A program made the position numbers and the translations under genes. A stretch of 64,000 bases of DNA, from contig JAJFGG010000013.1 in the NCBI GenBank assembly GCA_021776235.1, positions 62,001 through 126,000 of the forward strand. The letters run 5' to 3'. Position 1 is the first letter of the stretch. Each line of letters starts with the position of its first letter. This document shows, piece after piece, positions 9,632 through 46,713 of the stretch. The DNA comes from Alphaproteobacteria bacterium. Lineage in GTDB: Bacteria; Pseudomonadota; Alphaproteobacteria; GCA-2731375. The notes under the pieces are model-generated. The model worked only from the letters and a program-made list of their open reading frames with translations. It did not search any database and had not been told where the DNA came from.

Positions 9632-10564
9632 ATGACAGAGCAAATCAACCCCGGACACATGCTGCAGGACAAGGTCATTCTGGTAACCGGCGCCGGGCGC
9701 GGCGTGGGCCGTGACATCGCCCTGTTGGCGGCCAGCCAAGGCGCCAAGGTGATCGTCAACGATCTGGGCGGCGAGGCCGACGGCGAAGGCGCGGACAAGA
9801 CCCCGGCCATGGAAGTGGTGGGCGACATCAAGGCGGCCGGCGGCGAGGCCGCGGCCAATTATGGCTCGGTCGCCGATTTCGAGACGGCCGAAGCCATGGT
9901 GCAACAGGCAGTGGACACCTATGGCCGCATCGACGGCGTCGTCAACAACGCCGGCATTCTGCGTGATGTCATCTTCCATAAAATGACCGAGGAGGAATGG
10001 GACATTGTCATCGCCGTGCATTTGAAGGGCAGTTTCAACGTGGCCCGCGCCGCCGCGACCCGCTTTCGTGAACAGCAAAGCGGCGCCTTCGTGCACATGA
10101 CCTCCACTTCCGGCCTGGTGGGGAATTTCGGACAAGCGAACTATGCCGCCGCCAAACTGGGCATCGCGGGACTATCGAAATCCCTGGCCCTGGATATGTC
10201 GCGCTTTGGCGTCCGCTCCAACTGCATCTCGCCCTTTGCCTGGAGCCGCCTGATCGGCACCATCCCCATTGCCGACGAGGCCCAGGCCGCCCGGGTCGAG
10301 AAGATCAAGGCCATGACCCCGGCCAAGATAGCGCCCATGGCGGTGTTCCTGTTGTCCGAGGCGGCGGCCGAAGTCACCGCCCAGATTTTTGGCGTGCGGC
10401 ACAACGAGATCTTCCTGTTCAACCAGCCGCGGCCGATCCGGTCGGTGCAACGGACCGAAGGTTGGACGCCGGAAACCATCGCCGAACACGCCCTGCCGGC
10501 CATGAAATCCAGTTTCATGGGGCTGGAGCGCAGCCAGGATGTGTTCAGCTGGGATCCGGTCTAG
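9632..10564 (+). CDS. SDR oxidoreductase, MFE-2-like (3R)-hydroxyacyl-CoA dehydrogenase
   Basis: Encodes 310 aa. The Rossmann motif TGAGRGVG is at residues 19-26, NNAG is present, and the catalytic YAAAK is at Tyr171-Lys175. The sequence VIVNDLGG after the second strand and the long C-terminal region resemble the dehydrogenase unit of peroxisomal multifunctional enzyme type 2, which oxidises (3R)-hydroxyacyl-CoA. The MaoC hydratase immediately downstream fits that assignment, as together they match the two halves of MFE-2. GGAGG lies 13 bases and GACAGG 2 bases before the ATG; an ATG at 9659 is a possible shorter start. Confidence 0.9.
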   Translation: MTEQINPGHMLQDKVILVTGAGRGVGRDIALLAASQGAKVIVNDLGGEADGEGADKTPAMEVVGDIKAAGGEAAANYGSVADFETAEAMVQQAVDTYGRIDGVVNNAGILRDVIFHKMTEEEWDIVIAVHLKGSFNVARAAATRFREQQSGAFVHMTSTSGLVGNFGQANYAAAKLGIAGLSKSLALDMSRFGVRSNCISPFAWSRLIGTIPIADEAQAARVEKIKAMTPAKIAPMAVFLLSEAAAEVTAQIFGVRHNEIFLFNQPRPIRSVQRTEGWTPETIAEHALPAMKSSFMGLERSQDVFSWDPV

Positions 10565-14229: not shown

Positions 14230-16245
14230 TTATTTCTTGCCGAACAGACTGTCCAGACCCTTTTTCAAGCTATCCAAGGGTCCGTCATCGGCTGCACCGC
14301 TGGCCGACGGCTGTTCCGGCGCCTTGGCGGGGGAGGGGTCTGCGTCAGCCTTGGCGATCTTCAGACAAGGATTATCTTCGCCGCTGCCCATGTCTCCCAA
14401 TGCCAGCAAGGCCAGGGGCAGAAACATGGTCCGTCCCAGCAGACCGCCCAGACGCCGCGCCGTAGCCAATTCATCAGGCCGGAAAGTGGGTTCGGCAAAG
14501 GTGCCGCCAATTTTTACAGGCACCGCGACATTCAGGGTCGCTGATTTTGCATACGGTGAAATTTTCATGGCCAGGGTTTCCTTGCCCAGGTCTATTTCGC
14601 CCTCGCCAACCAGAGTGGAAAATTCCGTATCAACCAATAGAACCTGAGAGGTGGCAACGCCTTTCTTGATTTCGAAACCGGATGCGATGCAATTCAGCAC
14701 CGTCCATTTCGATTTTTCCGGCGATATCATGCCCATGATCGCCGACAGGCCGCCGATGGCGGCATCGAAGGCTGCGGTTTTCACCATGCCTTCGTTCATC
14801 AGCAATTTGATGCCGCCGTTCAGACTGCCCGCGACGGTTGCCACGGACTCCCCACGGCCCGCCAATTTCACCGACAGATCGCCCGTACCCTGAAGCAGAG
14901 CCGTGGTTTTGCTTTCTGCCAACAAGCCTCCCACATCCAGTTTCGGAGCTGCCAATTCAAAGCTTACCGTCGGGATCTTGCTGCTGGCATCAACCGAGGC
15001 GGAAGCCTGCATGCTGCTGCCGCCGGCAGTCAAAGCCACGGGATCCAGTCTCAAGTGGCCATTTTTCAAGATGGCGACGGCTGTCAGGTCCTGCAGTTTC
15101 AGGCTTGGCGTCACCACTTCCGCCAAGGATATCTTCACATCCGCATCAAGCGCCTTCAAGACATCGAGGGGAAGCCGCTCCGCGGGAAAGATCTTGCCGG
15201 GCCGCTTCACTTTACTGCCCGCAGGCGCCTTGTGGTCCTTGGTCGCCGGCCGCAGTTGCGTTAAGTCCAGGCGCTTGCCGGACAACTCGGCGGTCAATTT
15301 CGGCAGCTTACCGCCGGTATCCATGCTGAGACTACCCGCGAGATGGCTGTTGCCCAGATCGAGGTGCAGATCCGAAAGACTGACCTTGTGGCCCGCGGCG
15401 CTGAGCTGGACGCCGAGCTTCATGGCCACGTTCGCAGGCAGCACGCCGCCAACCAGAGACTGCAGCCCTGACAGATCCGCCGCCCTCACCTCGATGTGTG
15501 CATCCATGACGCCGGTGGTTGCCTTGGCCGACCCTTTGATCTTGGCGCGCAGACCCAGAACCTCCGCCGTCAAGTCGATCTGCAGGGGTTTGACAGTGGA
15601 AAAGGCATTCTTCAAGGGTCCCACGGCGCCGTTCAATTTCAGGCTCATGTCATTGAAGCTGGCCAGAACATTCAACTGCAAGGCATCGTCAACGGAGCCA
15701 GCTTCGGCCTCCAGAGCCACCAATTTGACTTTCGTGGTCTCGCCGTTGACACCGTTGCGATAGGTCAGCAGGCCATTTTCGATCATCAGGCGGCCAATAT
15801 GCGGCACCGCGCCGCCGCCATCAGCCGCCGTCTTTCCTCTCTCTTCTGCCGGCGCTCGGAAAATCCAGTTGCCCGTGCCTTTGGCATCGGTCTCAAGCAG
15901 GATATCCGGTTCGATCAGGATTAAACGGTTAATCCGGATATCCCCGAACAGCAACGGCAGCAGCCGCAATTGCACTTCAAAGCGGCGCAGGGTCATCATC
16001 TGTGATCGCGAGCCCCACGGCGCGTTGCCCAGGCTGATACCTTCACCCGAAACGGTAGGGGTCAAAGACACCGACAGGGATAATGGACCTTGCAACCGCA
16101 GAACCCGGCCCGTAGCGTCCTGGGCCGCTTGGGCAATCTCGCTGCGGTATTCATCCACATCCAGATTGGTCAGATAAGCCGCGCCAGCAGCAACGATAGC
16201 CACCAGTGTAGCGACCGCTATTCCCGCGATCTTGCCGATCCGCAC
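14230..16245 (-). CDS. AsmA family protein
   Basis: Encodes 671 aa. A single N-terminal membrane anchor (residues about 4-27) is followed by the AsmA start GRVLRLQGPLSLSVSLTPTV. The C-terminal AsmA_2-like region includes GGSLNGGIKLLMNEG, ending in KIGGTFAEPTFRPD and a short Ser/Asp/Lys-rich tail. These inner-membrane-anchored, periplasm-spanning beta-rich proteins are linked to outer-membrane assembly and phospholipid transport between membranes. The start is a GTG at 16243-16245 with GGAGG seven bases before it. The ATG nearby is out of frame, and the long upstream extension is antisense to the citrate synthase and was rejected. Confidence 0.88.
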   Translation of the reverse strand: MRIGKIAGIAVATLVAIVAAGAAYLTNLDVDEYRSEIAQAAQDATGRVLRLQGPLSLSVSLTPTVSGEGISLGNAPWGSRSQMMTLRRFEVQLRLLPLLFGDIRINRLILIEPDILLETDAKGTGNWIFRAPAEERGKTAADGGGAVPHIGRLMIENGLLTYRNGVNGETTKVKLVALEAEAGSVDDALQLNVLASFNDMSLKLNGAVGPLKNAFSTVKPLQIDLTAEVLGLRAKIKGSAKATTGVMDAHIEVRAADLSGLQSLVGGVLPANVAMKLGVQLSAAGHKVSLSDLHLDLGNSHLAGSLSMDTGGKLPKLTAELSGKRLDLTQLRPATKDHKAPAGSKVKRPGKIFPAERLPLDVLKALDADVKISLAEVVTPSLKLQDLTAVAILKNGHLRLDPVALTAGGSSMQASASVDASSKIPTVSFELAAPKLDVGGLLAESKTTALLQGTGDLSVKLAGRGESVATVAGSLNGGIKLLMNEGMVKTAAFDAAIGGLSAIMGMISPEKSKWTVLNCIASGFEIKKGVATSQVLLVDTEFSTLVGEGEIDLGKETLAMKISPYAKSATLNVAVPVKIGGTFAEPTFRPDELATARRLGGLLGRTMFLPLALLALGDMGSGEDNPCLKIAKADADPSPAKAPEQPSASGAADDGPLDSLKKGLDSLFGKK

Positions 16246-23084: not shown

Positions 23085-24602
23085 ATGAGTATTCCCGTCA
23101 ACGATTGGATCGCCCATCACGCCCGCTTTGCGCCGGATCAGCAGGCGATGCACGATCTCGCCTCGGGCCGCCGCTTCAACTATCAGCAGATGCACGAGCG
23201 GGTCGAACGCGCCGCCCTGTATCTGCGCGACGGCCTGGGCGTGGGGAATGGCGACCGGCTGGCGGTGCTGTGCCACAACGACACGGATATGTTCGAGCTG
23301 CAGTTCGCCTGCCGCCGCCTTGGCGCGATCTTCCTGCCCCTGAACTGGCGCCTGGCGGTGCCGGAACTGGAATATATCTGCAACGACGCGACGCCGAAGG
23401 CACTATTGTACGGTAACGAGTTCGCCGCCGAGGCGGCCGAGATCCAGCGTCTGGCGAATGTGCCAACTATCGCCAGCCTGAACAATGGCGGCGATAGCGA
23501 CTATGAAGCCGGGCTGGCGGCGGCCAGCGGTACTGTCGCGGCGCCGCACCGGGTGCTGACCGACGTCTGGACGGTGATGTACACATCGGGCACCACGGGC
23601 CGCCCCAAAGGCGCCAAGATCACTTACCAGATGGCCGTGTTCAATGCCATTCAGTGTGCCATGACCGTGGAACTGACCAGTAAATCGAACAATCTGGTAT
23701 TCCTGCCGATCTTCCACACCGGCGGCCTGAACGTCTATGGCAACCCGGTGTTCCATACCGGCGGCAACAATGTGGTGCTGCGCAGCTTCGATCCGGCCTA
23801 TTTCCTGGCGCTGCTGACCGACAAGGAATTGAACCTGACCCATGCCCTGGGGGTGCCGACCAATTATCTGATGATGGCCGAGGAACCGGGCTTCGCCACG
23901 GCCGATATGTCGCACGTGGTCTGCCTGGGCGTCGGCGGCGCGGCGGCGCCGTTGTCGCTGATCGAGGATTTCGGCGCCAAGGGCATCAAGCTGCAGCAGG
24001 GCTGGGGCATGACCGAGACGGGACCCCTGGGCCTGATGCTGTCGGGTGACCAGGCCATTTCCCGGGTCGGCTCGTCCGGTCTGCCGCCGATGTACGTCAG
24101 CCTGCGGATCGTCGACGAGAATGAAGCGGACGTGCCTCAGGGAGAGACCGGCGAATTGCTGATCAAGGGACCCACCGTGACGCCGGGCTATTGGAACCGC
24201 GAGGCCGAACACGACGACTTTTACACCCCGGACGGCTGGTTCCGCACCGGCGATGCGGCCCGGCAGGACGAAGGCGGCTACTACTACATCGTCGACCGAA
24301 CCAAGGATATGTTCATCTCGGGGGGCGAAAACGTCTATCCGGTGGAAGTGGAGAATGTGATTTTCCAGATAGACGGCGTACTGGAAAATGCCGTGATCGG
24401 CGTTCCGGACGACAAATGGGGCGAAATCGGCCGGGCCTGCGTGGTTCTGAAAGACGGCTCAAACCTGAACGAGGACGCCATCATCGAACATTGCCAGGGG
24501 CAGTTGGCCCGCTTCAAGGTGCCAAAGCAGGTCCGCTTCATGGACGAACTACCCCACAACGCCACCGGCAAGGTGCTGAAGCACGAATTACCCCGGGATT
24601 AG
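23085..24602 (+). CDS. AMP-dependent acyl-CoA synthetase
   Basis: Encodes 505 aa. The ANL superfamily motifs are complete: P-loop YTSGTTGRPKG, GWGMTETG, GWFRTGDAAR, KDMFISGGENVYPVEVE and the catalytic Lys in NATGKVLKHELP. It activates a carboxylic acid to its CoA thioester; FadD3-like or medium-chain specificity is possible. Last gene of the gpsA-EVE run; a dispersed repeat begins three bases after its stop. Confidence 0.92.
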   Translation: MSIPVNDWIAHHARFAPDQQAMHDLASGRRFNYQQMHERVERAALYLRDGLGVGNGDRLAVLCHNDTDMFELQFACRRLGAIFLPLNWRLAVPELEYICNDATPKALLYGNEFAAEAAEIQRLANVPTIASLNNGGDSDYEAGLAAASGTVAAPHRVLTDVWTVMYTSGTTGRPKGAKITYQMAVFNAIQCAMTVELTSKSNNLVFLPIFHTGGLNVYGNPVFHTGGNNVVLRSFDPAYFLALLTDKELNLTHALGVPTNYLMMAEEPGFATADMSHVVCLGVGGAAAPLSLIEDFGAKGIKLQQGWGMTETGPLGLMLSGDQAISRVGSSGLPPMYVSLRIVDENEADVPQGETGELLIKGPTVTPGYWNREAEHDDFYTPDGWFRTGDAARQDEGGYYYIVDRTKDMFISGGENVYPVEVENVIFQIDGVLENAVIGVPDDKWGEIGRACVVLKDGSNLNEDAIIEHCQGQLARFKVPKQVRFMDELPHNATGKVLKHELPRD

Positions 24603-24604
24603 TG

Positions 24605-24746
24605 CAGTTTCGATATTCATCGAATCAGGTCTAACTATTCGTGCGCCAACGCGCACCGCTCCCCAAGAGCTTCAGGGCGGGCGGCGCATTAGCGCCGGGC
24701 CGCCGTCGCGGCCTGGATGGCGTAATTCGAAATCGAATTCGGTCTA
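24605..24746. repeat. Dispersed palindromic intergenic repeat, copy A (about 142 bp)
   Basis: Shares its two ends and a GC-rich core with the element at 44474-44621: a left hairpin TTCGAT-ATTC-ATCGAA (about 24609-24624), a core GCGCCGGGCCGCCGTCGCGG, and a right palindrome AATTCGA-AA-TCGAATT. It fills the gap between two convergent genes (acyl-CoA ligase and SDR). A bidirectional terminator or REP-like element is likely. Confidence 0.85.
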
Positions 24747-24766: not shown

Positions 24767-25564
24767 CTATCGCGGCCAGGCGCGCAGAGCGCAGAGGCCG
24801 CCGTCCACGGGCAAAAAGACGCCGGTGACCCAGCGGGCTTCATCGCTGGCCAGATAGACCGCGGCCCAGCCCACGTCCCAGCCCGTGCCTTCGGTCTGCA
24901 TGGGCACCATTTCAATGCGGCGTTTGCGAACCTCCTCGCCCCGGCCGGCCACCATGGGCGTGGCGACGGAGCCGATGATGATGCAATTGCAGCGGATCTG
25001 TTCCGTGGCGTAGTCGGCGGCGATGGATAATGTCAGGCCATGCACGCCGGATTTGGTGGCGGCATAGGCCGCGGCGCCTGGACTGCCCATCAGACCCAGG
25101 GCGCCAGCGATCGAGGAGACATTTATAATGGAACCGCCGCCGCCACTCTCCCGCATCAAAGGCACGGCAACCCGGCTGCACATCATGGCCGAGGTCATGT
25201 TGACGTGCAGGAGATTGCTCCAGGTCTCGTCGCTCAAATCCTCGACACGGTTCGGTCCGCCGCCCGCGCCCACACCGACGTTGTTGCAAAGAATATCCAG
25301 ACGGCCATAGCGTTCCTGAACCGCCTGTCCCATGGCCGCAACCTGGTCGGACTTGGTCACATCCGCCGCAAAGACCGAGGCCTCGCCGCCTTCGTCCGCG
25401 ATCTCGGCCGCCAATGCCTCGCCACGTTCGGCTGAGCGGTTGACCAGCAATACCTTGGCCCCCTCGCGGGCCATCAGCAGGGCCATGGCCTTGCCGTTGC
25501 CCACCCCTTCGCCCCGCGGGGCCGCACCGGTCACGATGGCAACCTTGCCATCCAATCGTCCCAT
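24767..25564 (-). CDS. SDR family oxidoreductase
   Basis: Encodes 265 aa. The cofactor motif is TGAAPRGEGVGNG (an expanded glycine loop), with NNVG at the fourth strand, Ser in INVSSIAG and catalytic YAATK. It oxidises or reduces an alcohol/ketone, probably a hydroxyacyl-CoA, given the downstream position behind a DUF35-thiolase pair. The C-terminus DGGLCALRAWPR departs from the usual short end. Separated from the DUF35 gene by 154 bases containing a 14-bp hairpin. Confidence 0.9.
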   Translation of the reverse strand: MGRLDGKVAIVTGAAPRGEGVGNGKAMALLMAREGAKVLLVNRSAERGEALAAEIADEGGEASVFAADVTKSDQVAAMGQAVQERYGRLDILCNNVGVGAGGGPNRVEDLSDETWSNLLHVNMTSAMMCSRVAVPLMRESGGGGSIINVSSIAGALGLMGSPGAAAYAATKSGVHGLTLSIAADYATEQIRCNCIIIGSVATPMVAGRGEEVRKRRIEMVPMQTEGTGWDVGWAAVYLASDEARWVTGVFLPVDGGLCALRAWPR

Positions 25565-43685: not shown

Positions 43686-44477
43686 ATGAAAACCCTGCCT
43701 TTGAATATCGTGGTCTGTTTGCCACGGGCTTTGTTGCGCCGCGTTGCGGTGGTGCTGACAAGCCTTGCACTGCTGTCAATCGCTGCTCCCCAGGTTGCCC
43801 TGGCAGACCCGGGCAAATCGCCGGTCGTGGTGGAATTGTATACCTCTCAGGGCTGCAATTCCTGTCCGCCGGCGGATCTGTTGCTGGGCAAGCTGGCGGC
43901 GCGGGAGGATATTATCGCCCTGACATTCAATGTGGATTACTGGGACTATCTGGGCTGGAAGGATACCCTGGCTCAGGCTGCGCATACGGAACGGCAACGC
44001 CATTATGCCGTATCGTTCCGCAGCCGCAACGTCTATACGCCGCAGATGGTTATCGGGGGCCGGCAGCACGCCGTGGGCTCCGACGCGGCGGCGGTGGCGG
44101 CGGCGATCGAAGCGGAACAACGACACCAGGGCAGCAGGGAAGACGCTGCGCCGGGATTGCGGATTGAACATAAGGATGGCCGCATTCTGGTCACCCTGGG
44201 CGCGGCCCCGAATAAGCGCGCCGATGCCACCGTATGGCTGGTGCGCTATGACCAGCGCCGTGACGTGCCCATTCAGCGCGGCGAAAACGCCGGCAACAAG
44301 TTGAGCTATTTTAACGTCGCGCGGGATATGCGCTCTTTGGGCCAGTGGCGGGGCCAGGCCATGCAGTTGGATTTGAGCCGGGCCGAACTGTCGGAAGGCG
44401 GCCGGGATGGCTGTGCCATCATCGTGCAAAAAGGCCCCGTGGGGCCCATATTGGCGGCCGCCCGGATTATCTTCTAG
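43686..44477 (+). CDS. DUF1223 thioredoxin-fold protein
   Basis: Encodes 263 aa with a signal peptide (about 1-40, ...APQVALA). The DUF1223 domain begins VVVELYTSQGCNSCPPAD and contains NVDYWDYLGWKD, typical of this family. The CNSC pair resembles a thioredoxin redox motif. Periplasmic; the function is not established. A dispersed repeat begins at its stop codon. Confidence 0.88.
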   Translation: MKTLPLNIVVCLPRALLRRVAVVLTSLALLSIAAPQVALADPGKSPVVVELYTSQGCNSCPPADLLLGKLAAREDIIALTFNVDYWDYLGWKDTLAQAAHTERQRHYAVSFRSRNVYTPQMVIGGRQHAVGSDAAAVAAAIEAEQRHQGSREDAAPGLRIEHKDGRILVTLGAAPNKRADATVWLVRYDQRRDVPIQRGENAGNKLSYFNVARDMRSLGQWRGQAMQLDLSRAELSEGGRDGCAIIVQKGPVGPILAAARIIF

Positions 44478-44621
44478 ACCAGTTTCGATATTCATCGAAT
44501 CAGGTCTAGCTATTGTCGCTCACGCTCGCGCGCCAAAGCGCACCGCTCCGCGAGGGCAGCGCATTGGCGCCGGGCCGCCGTCGCGGCCTGGATTGCGTAA
44601 TTCGAAATCGAATTCGGACTA
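44474..44621. repeat. Dispersed palindromic intergenic repeat, copy B (about 148 bp)
   Basis: The left hairpin has nested arms CTAGACC (44474-44480) / GGTCTAG (44503-44509) and TTCGAT / ATCGAA. The right palindrome AATTCGA-AA-TCGAATT is at 44599-44614. The core shares GCGCCGGGCCGCCGTCGCGG with copy A (24605-24746), with two indels between them. It lies between convergent genes and begins within the upstream stop codon. Confidence 0.85.
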
Positions 44622-44666: not shown

Positions 44667-45062
44667 TCAGGCCAGGACCGCGTCTATGGCCGCCACGACC
44701 TCCTCGATCTTCATATCGGCGGTAAAGACGCCTTTGACGCCGGCATCCTTCAAGGCGGCCTGGTCATCGGCGGGAATGGTGCCGCCCACGAATAGAGGTA
44801 TGGCGCCGCCGTCCAGCGCCTGCAGCTGCCGCACCGTTTCCGCCACCAGTTCCAGATGGCTGCCCGACAGGATGGACAGGCCCACGGCGTCCACATCCTC
44901 CTCCACAGCCACGTTGGCAATGAAATCGGGGGCTTTGCGCAGGCCGGTATAGATCACTTCGGCCCCCGCATCACGCAGGGCCAGAGCAATCACCTTGGCC
45001 CCCACGTCGTGACCATCCAGGCCCGGTTTGGCGATCAGAATGCGCTTTCCCATCAGGCTCAT
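44667..45062 (-). CDS. B12-binding small subunit of a methylmalonyl-CoA-type mutase
   Basis: Encodes 131 aa. The cobalamin signature Asp16-x-His18-x-x-Gly21 (GLDGHDVGAK) supplies the lower-axial His, and GLSILSGSH and the GGTIP loop follow. It is the free-standing C-terminal domain of MCM-type mutases, forming a complex with the large subunit encoded just upstream. Start ATG 45062 lacks a strong Shine-Dalgarno, and coupling to the upstream gene (stop at 45076) is likely. Confidence 0.93.
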   Translation of the reverse strand: MSLMGKRILIAKPGLDGHDVGAKVIALALRDAGAEVIYTGLRKAPDFIANVAVEEDVDAVGLSILSGSHLELVAETVRQLQALDGGAIPLFVGGTIPADDQAALKDAGVKGVFTADMKIEEVVAAIDAVLA

Positions 45063-45075
45063 GTGGCCGGTCCAC

Positions 45076-46713
45076 TCATAATCCGACAGGCTCCTGAAAT
45101 TCACCCCAGTGGGCTTTCAAGGCATCGACCATCTCGCCAATGCTGACATAGGCATGCGCGCAATCGATCATATAAGGGATCAGATTGGCATCCTCCCGCA
45201 GAGCGGCATCCGAAAGCCGGCGCAGACTTGCTGCCGCCGCCGCACCGTCGCGCGTGGCCCGAACCTTGTTAAAACGCTCAATCGTCTGGCCGGCAGCTTC
45301 CGCATCCAGTTTGAAGACTTCGCCGAAATCACTGGCGCTTTCATCCTCGCGGCGGAAATGGTTCTGTCCCACCACCACCCGCTCCCCGGCATCGGTCTGC
45401 AGTTTGCGCTCCAAGGCCCGCCTGGCGATGCGGCTCTGCAGATAACCGTCTTCAATGGCCTTTTCCGCGCCGCCATAATCCTCGATCTCGGCGATTACCT
45501 TGGAAATTTCCAGATCCATCTGATCGGTTAGATATTCCACGTAGTAGCTGCCGCCCAGGGGATCCACGGTTTTCGAAATTCCGCTTTCATAGGCCACCAC
45601 CTGTTGCGTACGTAAAGCCGTTTCGGCGCTGAATTCCGTCGGGATCTGGTAGGCTTCGTCGTAGGCGCAGGTGAAGATGGACTGGGCGCCGCCAAACACA
45701 GCAGCCATGTTCTCAATCCCGACCCGGACGATATTATTGTAAGGCTGGGCCGCCGTCAGGGAAGAACCACCGCAAACCACGCCAAATCGGAACATCAGGG
45801 CTTTCGGATCCGTTACCCCATAGCGGTCATGCAATAATCTGGCCCAAACCCGGCGCCCGGCACGGAATTTGCAGATCTCCTCGAAGAAATCCATATGCAC
45901 ATAAAAGAAAAAGCTGAGACGCTTGGCGAAACGGTTAACATCGCCGCCACGGCGCAGCATTTCGTCCACATAGGCCAGACCGTTGGCCAGGGTAAAGCCC
46001 ATCTCCTCCACGGCGGTGGAACCGGCATCGCGCACATGAGCGCCGGCTATGGATATGGGATTGAAACGGGGCGTCGCGTCATTGGAAAACAGAATCGAAT
46101 CGGCGATCAGGCGCAATGATGGCCGGACCGGAAATATCCAGGTACCGCGCGCCACGTATTCCTTCAGAATATCATTCTGAATGGTGCCGGTCAGGCTTTC
46201 CCGCGGCACACCTTTTTTGTCGGCGGCGGCCAGATACATGGCGTAAATCATCGGCGCCGTACCGTTGATGGTGAACGAGGTCGAGATACCGGCAAGATCG
46301 ATACCGTCGAACAGGGTTTCCATATCGGCCAGGGTGGCAATGGAGACACCGACTTTCCCAACCTCGGACCGGGCCATGGCGTCAATGGGGTCATAGCCGC
46401 ATTGGGTCGGCAGATCCAGGGCCACGGACAAACCAGTCTGGCCCCGCTGCAACAGAAACCGATAGCGCTGGTTGGTCTCCTCGGCCGAGCCGAAACCTGA
46501 ATATTGCCGAATGGTCCACAAGCGGCCTCGATAGCCATTGGGAAAAATGCCCCGGGTAAAGGGATATTCGCCCGGGCTGCCGGGATCATTCCGGGCCATG
46601 TCGGCGGTCGCGACCTGGGGAATCTCGATGCCGGATGGGGTCGTTGAAGACGGCATGGCCGGAGCCGCCGCAACCTCGGCCTGCCCATCATCCTTATAGG
46701 CATTGTCGCTCAT
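45076..46713 (-). CDS. Methylmalonyl-CoA-type mutase large subunit (acyl-CoA mutase)
   Basis: Encodes 545 aa. Substrate-binding residues aligned by eye with Propionibacterium MutB are Tyr71 in TIRQYSGF (Y89), Arg201 in RPSLRLIAD (R207) and His226 in AGAHVRDAG (H244). The Tyr/Arg pair is that of methylmalonyl-CoA mutase, not isobutyryl-CoA (Phe/Gln) or 2-hydroxyisobutyryl-CoA (Ile) mutase. The rest differs from canonical MCM (ALDLPTQCGYDPI instead of [13 protein letters not shown]), so another dicarboxyl-CoA substrate is possible. ATG overlaps the stop of the hydratase upstream (TGATG). Confidence 0.92.
   Translation of the reverse strand: MSDNAYKDDGQAEVAAAPAMPSSTTPSGIEIPQVATADMARNDPGSPGEYPFTRGIFPNGYRGRLWTIRQYSGFGSAEETNQRYRFLLQRGQTGLSVALDLPTQCGYDPIDAMARSEVGKVGVSIATLADMETLFDGIDLAGISTSFTINGTAPMIYAMYLAAADKKGVPRESLTGTIQNDILKEYVARGTWIFPVRPSLRLIADSILFSNDATPRFNPISIAGAHVRDAGSTAVEEMGFTLANGLAYVDEMLRRGGDVNRFAKRLSFFFYVHMDFFEEICKFRAGRRVWARLLHDRYGVTDPKALMFRFGVVCGGSSLTAAQPYNNIVRVGIENMAAVFGGAQSIFTCAYDEAYQIPTEFSAETALRTQQVVAYESGISKTVDPLGGSYYVEYLTDQMDLEISKVIAEIEDYGGAEKAIEDGYLQSRIARRALERKLQTDAGERVVVGQNHFRREDESASDFGEVFKLDAEAAGQTIERFNKVRATRDGAAAAASLRRLSDAALREDANLIPYMIDCAHAYVSIGEMVDALKAHWGEFQEPVGL

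Follow-up and report, generated by a model that had tools for sequence, protein, structure and literature searches.

The stretch of alphaproteobacterial DNA analysed here (64,000 nucleotides, hereafter the window) carries, in two gaps between facing genes, copies of one palindromic repeat that begins on a stop codon, and the question is what this repeat is, how it came to lie there and whether it serves the genes on either side. The element is 147 bp long (TAGACC...GGTCTA). Read from the left, it starts with H0, a palindrome of 34 bp, followed by a T-rich stretch and a core of 74 nucleotides that comprises three hairpin domains; a spacer then leads to the right terminal hairpin. Copy 1 (24600..24746, plus strand) has a mutated left end (TAGTGC for TAGACC), H0 at 24600..24633, a core at 24630..24714 that is damaged relative to copy 2 (12 nucleotides missing, plus an insert) and scores 56.1 bits, and the right terminal hairpin, an IS630-type end, at 24723..24746, all on the plus strand. 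Copy 2 (44475..44621), likewise on the plus strand throughout, has H0 at 44475..44508, a core at 44516..44589 that scores 84 bits with core model R2, and the IS630-type right hairpin at 44598..44621. Both copies exist with common hairpin ends and core as originally predicted, although the exact limits differ by a few bases from those first given (24605-24746 and 44474-44621); the window has two occurrences of a 21-bp hairpin word that is absent from all of 100 shuffles. Copy 1 separates the convergent genes of an AMP-binding enzyme (gene A, 23085..24602, plus strand) and a short-chain dehydrogenase/reductase (gene B, 24767..25564, minus strand), and copy 2 those of a DUF1223 protein (gene A, 43686..44477, plus strand) and a B12-binding domain protein (gene B, 44667..45104, minus strand). 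The reported start within three bases of a stop codon has a simple form: in both copies the TAG with which the element and its H0 begin is itself the stop codon of the left-hand, upstream gene.

The element is found in its own genome as 43 pieces by BLAST and as 48 matches to a model built from 22 full copies, and each of the 11 genomes of the genus has model matches, 152 of them in the ten other genomes. Genes around the copies were called by a codon-usage script, not taken from annotation, and the background gaps come from the same stretches as the copies. Fisher tests, which assume independent copies where these are not independent, give p 1.6e-15 for the own genome, where 25 of 33 scorable copies lie in convergent gaps, eight in co-directional and none in divergent gaps, against 64 convergent among 536 other gaps (39 of the 48 matches were examined, and 6 at contig edges left out); p 9e-35 for the genus, with 52 convergent, 11 co-directional and no divergent among 63 copies against 40 of 446 gaps (67 examined, 64 from the ten other genomes and 3 from the own genome, with 4 at edges dropped); and p 2e-10 for other families of the class, with 28 convergent, 15 co-directional and 5 divergent among 48 copies against 33 of 247 gaps (49 examined, tandem units being counted singly). 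The original prediction placed the repeat in convergent gaps only, which is correct for the two window copies and wrong for the genome; the co-directional copies that it named as counter-evidence if placed at random do occur (8 of 33), but their placement is not random. The association with convergent gaps and stop codons is real and very strong: "strongly convergent" describes the element, "only convergent" does not.

The element is almost certainly a non-autonomous MITE of the IS630 type. Multi-copy IS630 ends in the same genome (TAGACCATTTTCGAGATTGAAT...), located at contig edges, have the TAGACC..TTCGA termini found at both ends of the element; left ends occur with the start of a transposase on contigs C19 and C97 and right ends with the end of a transposase on contigs C35, C160 and C161, and by eye the right ends of the element and of these IS630 sequences are alike over about 30 nucleotides. 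A full-length IS630 with exactly the ends of the element family is not assembled in this genome, which has contig-edge halves only, and a complete IS630 relative (DDE_3, with TAGACC..GATCTA ends) lies inside CTAG in genome G007. IS630 reportedly prefers the TA in CTAG. The expected duplication of TA is visible in a nested copy (L192 of genome G001), in which one element has entered another at CTAA and is bordered by TA on both sides, and agrees with the YTAR flanks of other copies; where the element is missing, at sites in L184 and L158, the TAG stop is present. At 147 bp the element has no transposase of its own, and we infer that IS630 is its mover; for ISY100, which is related to IS630, duplication of TA in vitro is described in the available text of PMC2170065. 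Insertion sequences of the IS5/IS427 type (PF13340) were considered as movers and rejected because the ends visible in three of them, TAGGG..CTGT, differ in type.

The comparison with REP/BIME-type repeats made in the original prediction points to the right neighbourhood, in that the element has hairpins and a 3'-end location, and the GTAG/CGTC REPs and Br-REP1 of Bradyrhizobium are also located close to the 3' ends of genes that converge (PMC3733652 and PMC5082802, in the excerpts available). REPs are, however, defined as tagged hairpins of 20-40 bp (PMC3733652, same excerpt), whereas the element measures 147 bp, has IS630-type ends and a TA duplication, and in the window copies has no GTAG tag and a sole CGTC that sits in a hairpin loop and not at an end; the consensus of Br-REP1 and the REPs is also different, and CGTC-type REPs have no known transposase. 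These differences make it highly improbable that the repeat is a REP/BIME element and owes its movement to a RAYT-type tyrosine transposase.

The target of insertion accounts for the stop codons. Nearly every copy in the own genome is preceded by C or T and followed by A or G, so the target is Y-TA-R. Because TAR is a stop codon, an insertion there leaves the protein unchanged while the element supplies a new TAG, and thus the element's own TAG serves as the stop codon. Such fusion is found in 15 of the 25 convergent own copies, and in three copies (L117, L099 and L129) both ends of the element are stop codons. The same stretches contain 775 YTAR sites that are non-coding or stop codons. Convergent sites number 92 among these, with stop codons accounting for 49 of the 92; the frequency of stop fusion (15 of 25 against 49 of 92) is what the YTAR target alone predicts. 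A target that contains a stop codon is a simple and checkable reason for short mobile repeats to hug the stops between facing genes. The convergent excess (76% against 12%) goes beyond that prediction and needs either purging of insertions elsewhere or a benefit of insertions there.

The first of these options is the whole of a purely selfish account, in which the location of the MITE follows from its YTAR target plus purging elsewhere. It draws on the stop fusion at YTAR expectation and on a sister MITE, family B, which shares its IS630-type ends with the element, has an unrelated palindromic interior and no core, and yet is equally biased: of its 14 scorable copies (25 found) 8 are convergent, 6 co-directional and none divergent, and the left end is fused to a stop in 10 of the 25. 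The location bias is therefore independent of the core, and location is no proof of a terminator. A like argument has been made for the pneumococcal BOX, RUP and SPRITE repeats in the accessible part of PMC3049150. Family B copies are about 128-139 bp long (L206-L225, L256-L304 and contigs C5, C54 and C95 of the own genome); the family is abundant in genome G006, many contigs of which break inside its copies.

The novel part of the element is the 74-nucleotide core. Out of 106 core sequences 105 were kept, and 46 remained after removal of near-identical ones; 42 of these (four truncated or misaligned were dropped), together with the cores of L042 and L045, make up a set of 44 dereplicated cores (A3) aligned by sequence only. 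Double-sided changes occur in 16 of the 24 base pairs of this alignment, against 4.8 +- 1.5 in shuffles (0 of 500 reaching the observed value), and 92.4% of its cells are paired, against 23-48% with the partners slid. Among 49 cores of other families (A4) there are 170 double-changed cells against 37, in an alignment that, having been fitted to the model, is tilted in its favour. The core is present in at least 23 of 385 genomes of the class, in 14 genera and 13 families; these counts are lower bounds because at most 12 candidates were scored per genome. Elsewhere it is found within other ends: genomes G300 and G214 have it between other terminal hairpins, and G129 has it with an IS630-type right end and a different left hairpin. 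Two loci of genomes G320 and G232 (L372:4971-5346 and L375:739-992) have tandem cores between convergent genes, in which a unit of 85 bp is repeated 4.4 times and one of 88 bp 2.9 times, respectively.

In three stretches scanned against Rfam 15, the core has no match above the gathering score, so that a folded module spread across the class, and apparently kept after insertion, lacks an Rfam 15 counterpart for these stretches. A text search of the literature for the core word TCGCTCACG returned only matches unrelated by title, and the entries listed for such repeats in Alphaproteobacteria include no description of the element, which is not proof of absence. Phages and plasmids contain no element detectable by blastn, and viral contigs do not contain the exact hairpin word; the core pattern matches two viral contigs, one of them an IMG/VR contig with a core copy at L378:556-637 (44.5 bits with the core model) and the other with a cut-off copy (27.6 bits).

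Orthologous sites indicate what happens to the core after insertion. At four gene pairs it occupies a shared site in two to four species, with an identity of 0.80-0.92, compared with 0.50-0.86 at the fourfold-degenerate sites of the neighbouring genes; the core is clearly above the fourfold sites in 8 of 9 comparisons, the ninth (L163/L205) having little excess (0.88 against 0.82 and 0.86). The downstream flanks of the orthologous copies are mostly not alignable. In 48 low-scoring copies the core (0.81) is better kept than the two ends (0.50 and 0.47), a difference that is partly ascertainment because the copies were found by their core. At some loci the core is dispensable, since a solo 34-bp H0 without a core occupies the orthologous gap of another species (L176 versus L135, about 9966-9999, and L071, about 1501-1534; L174 versus L132, about 15341-15374). 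The purely selfish account would attribute the seeming conservation to recent copies, to gene conversion or to detection by the core, and is consistent with these core-less gaps; against it stand the excess of orthologous cores over the fourfold sites of both flanking genes, clear in all but one of the nine pairs, and the covariation across families whose ends differ. Selection on the core is a good deal more probable than conversion or detection bias, and a MITE that is selfish in every part is possible but not the favoured reading.

If the core is selected, three roles have to be weighed. The idea that the palindromic ends form a bidirectional transcription terminator, put forward in the original prediction, found no direct support. 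It agrees with the convergent position, with the hairpins and the T-rich stretch after H0, with the distance of the core from the stop codon of gene A in 37 of the 52 convergent genus copies (5-8 nucleotides in 18 of them and 35-39 nucleotides in 19, without and with H0 in between, respectively), and with the folding of the element RNA, which is better on each strand than in shuffles (z -3.95 and -3.29). Neither window copy, however, has the signature of an intrinsic terminator (a GC-rich hairpin followed by a run of T), the core is asymmetric, with hairpins that on neither strand lead into a U-run, and the core-less sister MITE is located in the same way, so that a bidirectional terminator is doubtful. 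One terminator-like site lies nearby, at 24835-24820, and is unrelated to the element.

Alternatively, the core may be a small structured RNA carried by the MITE and made from the minus strand, in the sense of gene B. In the stem cells of A3 and A4 together, A-C on the plus strand outnumbers G-U by 55 to 22 (p 2e-4 if cells are independent), an excess that would fit a folded RNA from the minus strand and is only a hint because stem cells are not independent. On the minus strand the internal loop is rich in purines, and the tandem arrays of 85-88 bp units in G320 and G232 also speak for this role. The regions of the two window copies have no promoter-like site, though, and such an RNA sits awkwardly with a core whose distance is fixed to gene A and not to gene B; it would be an unlikely role. 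Of the 19 co-directional copies of the own genome and genus, 14 have the plus strand running with the upstream gene, as do 6 of 15 in distant families. A broader form of the idea, in which the core would represent an undescribed class of structured RNA of the Alphaproteobacteria, mainly from the minus strand, spread by means of each lineage's IS630-type ends and retained as a regulator at the 3' ends of convergent gene pairs, is conceivable rather than likely; on that equally speculative footing the core would correspond, in bacteria, to a SINE whose RNA body is conserved. The third role, a folded 3'-end element that separates facing transcripts, is tentatively ranked above a plain selfish MITE.

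The reading that best joins the copies and their shared ends, the duplicated TA and the element-free sites, the covariation, the class-wide spread and the orthologous retention is that of an IS630-moved MITE with an old folded core kept for a possible role at 3' ends, to which we assign a probability of roughly 0.6. IS630-family transposases of the same genus would move the element in trans and insert it at YTAR, duplicating the TA; copies that land in genes, promoters or operons would be purged, so that mostly those in convergent gaps remain. The cargo would be the old 74-nucleotide core, which has apparently been joined to several unrelated ends across the Alphaproteobacteria, and after insertion the ends would decay while the core is kept. 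Its hairpins would most likely act at the 3' ends of both facing genes, candidate actions being a block to read-through or the shaping of the 3' ends or stability of the convergent transcripts. The two core-less orthologous gaps speak against this reading, as do the distant families, which have no strand preference (6 versus 9 co-directional copies) and include 5 divergent copies. Whether repeats of this kind come to serve their host is an old question that can be tested directly at the known orthologous loci.

Among described repeats, as far as the available portions of the cited papers describe them, the closest working parallels are RUP and BOX of Streptococcus pneumoniae. RUP, an IS630-Spn1-related MITE of about 107 bp, resembles the element in its IS630-type ends, TA target and convergent excess (PMC3049150, PMC2229807), but has another sequence and host, and those portions describe no covarying core common to several end types. 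BOX likewise supplies stop codons, doing so for 36 of 58 overlapping CDSs (PMC3049150), but is modular (boxA/B/C), with other ends and another host. CIR of Caulobacter and other Alphaproteobacteria is also intergenic, about 110 bp long and built of two hairpin arms (PMC2229807); it exposes GANTC in its loop, whereas GANTC occurs in only 1 of 105 and 0 of 49 cores of the element, and each window copy has one GAATC, which lies in H0. Bru-RS1/2 of Brucella are palindromic alphaproteobacterial repeats of about 103-105 bp that, compared with the element by description only, differ in being described as an insertion hot spot of IS711, which uses YTAR and duplicates TA (PMC2266754, PMC2267715). An insertion sequence of about 1.05 kb with TGTTTAGTCCC ends and, by eye, an integrase-like transposase starts at several loci about 2 bp past the MITE's CTA end (L102:1-143 and L112:1-143 on contigs C98 and C109, L162 at about 11238-12283 on contig C161, L187 after 6222, and L223), as if it landed on the CTAG ends of the MITE.
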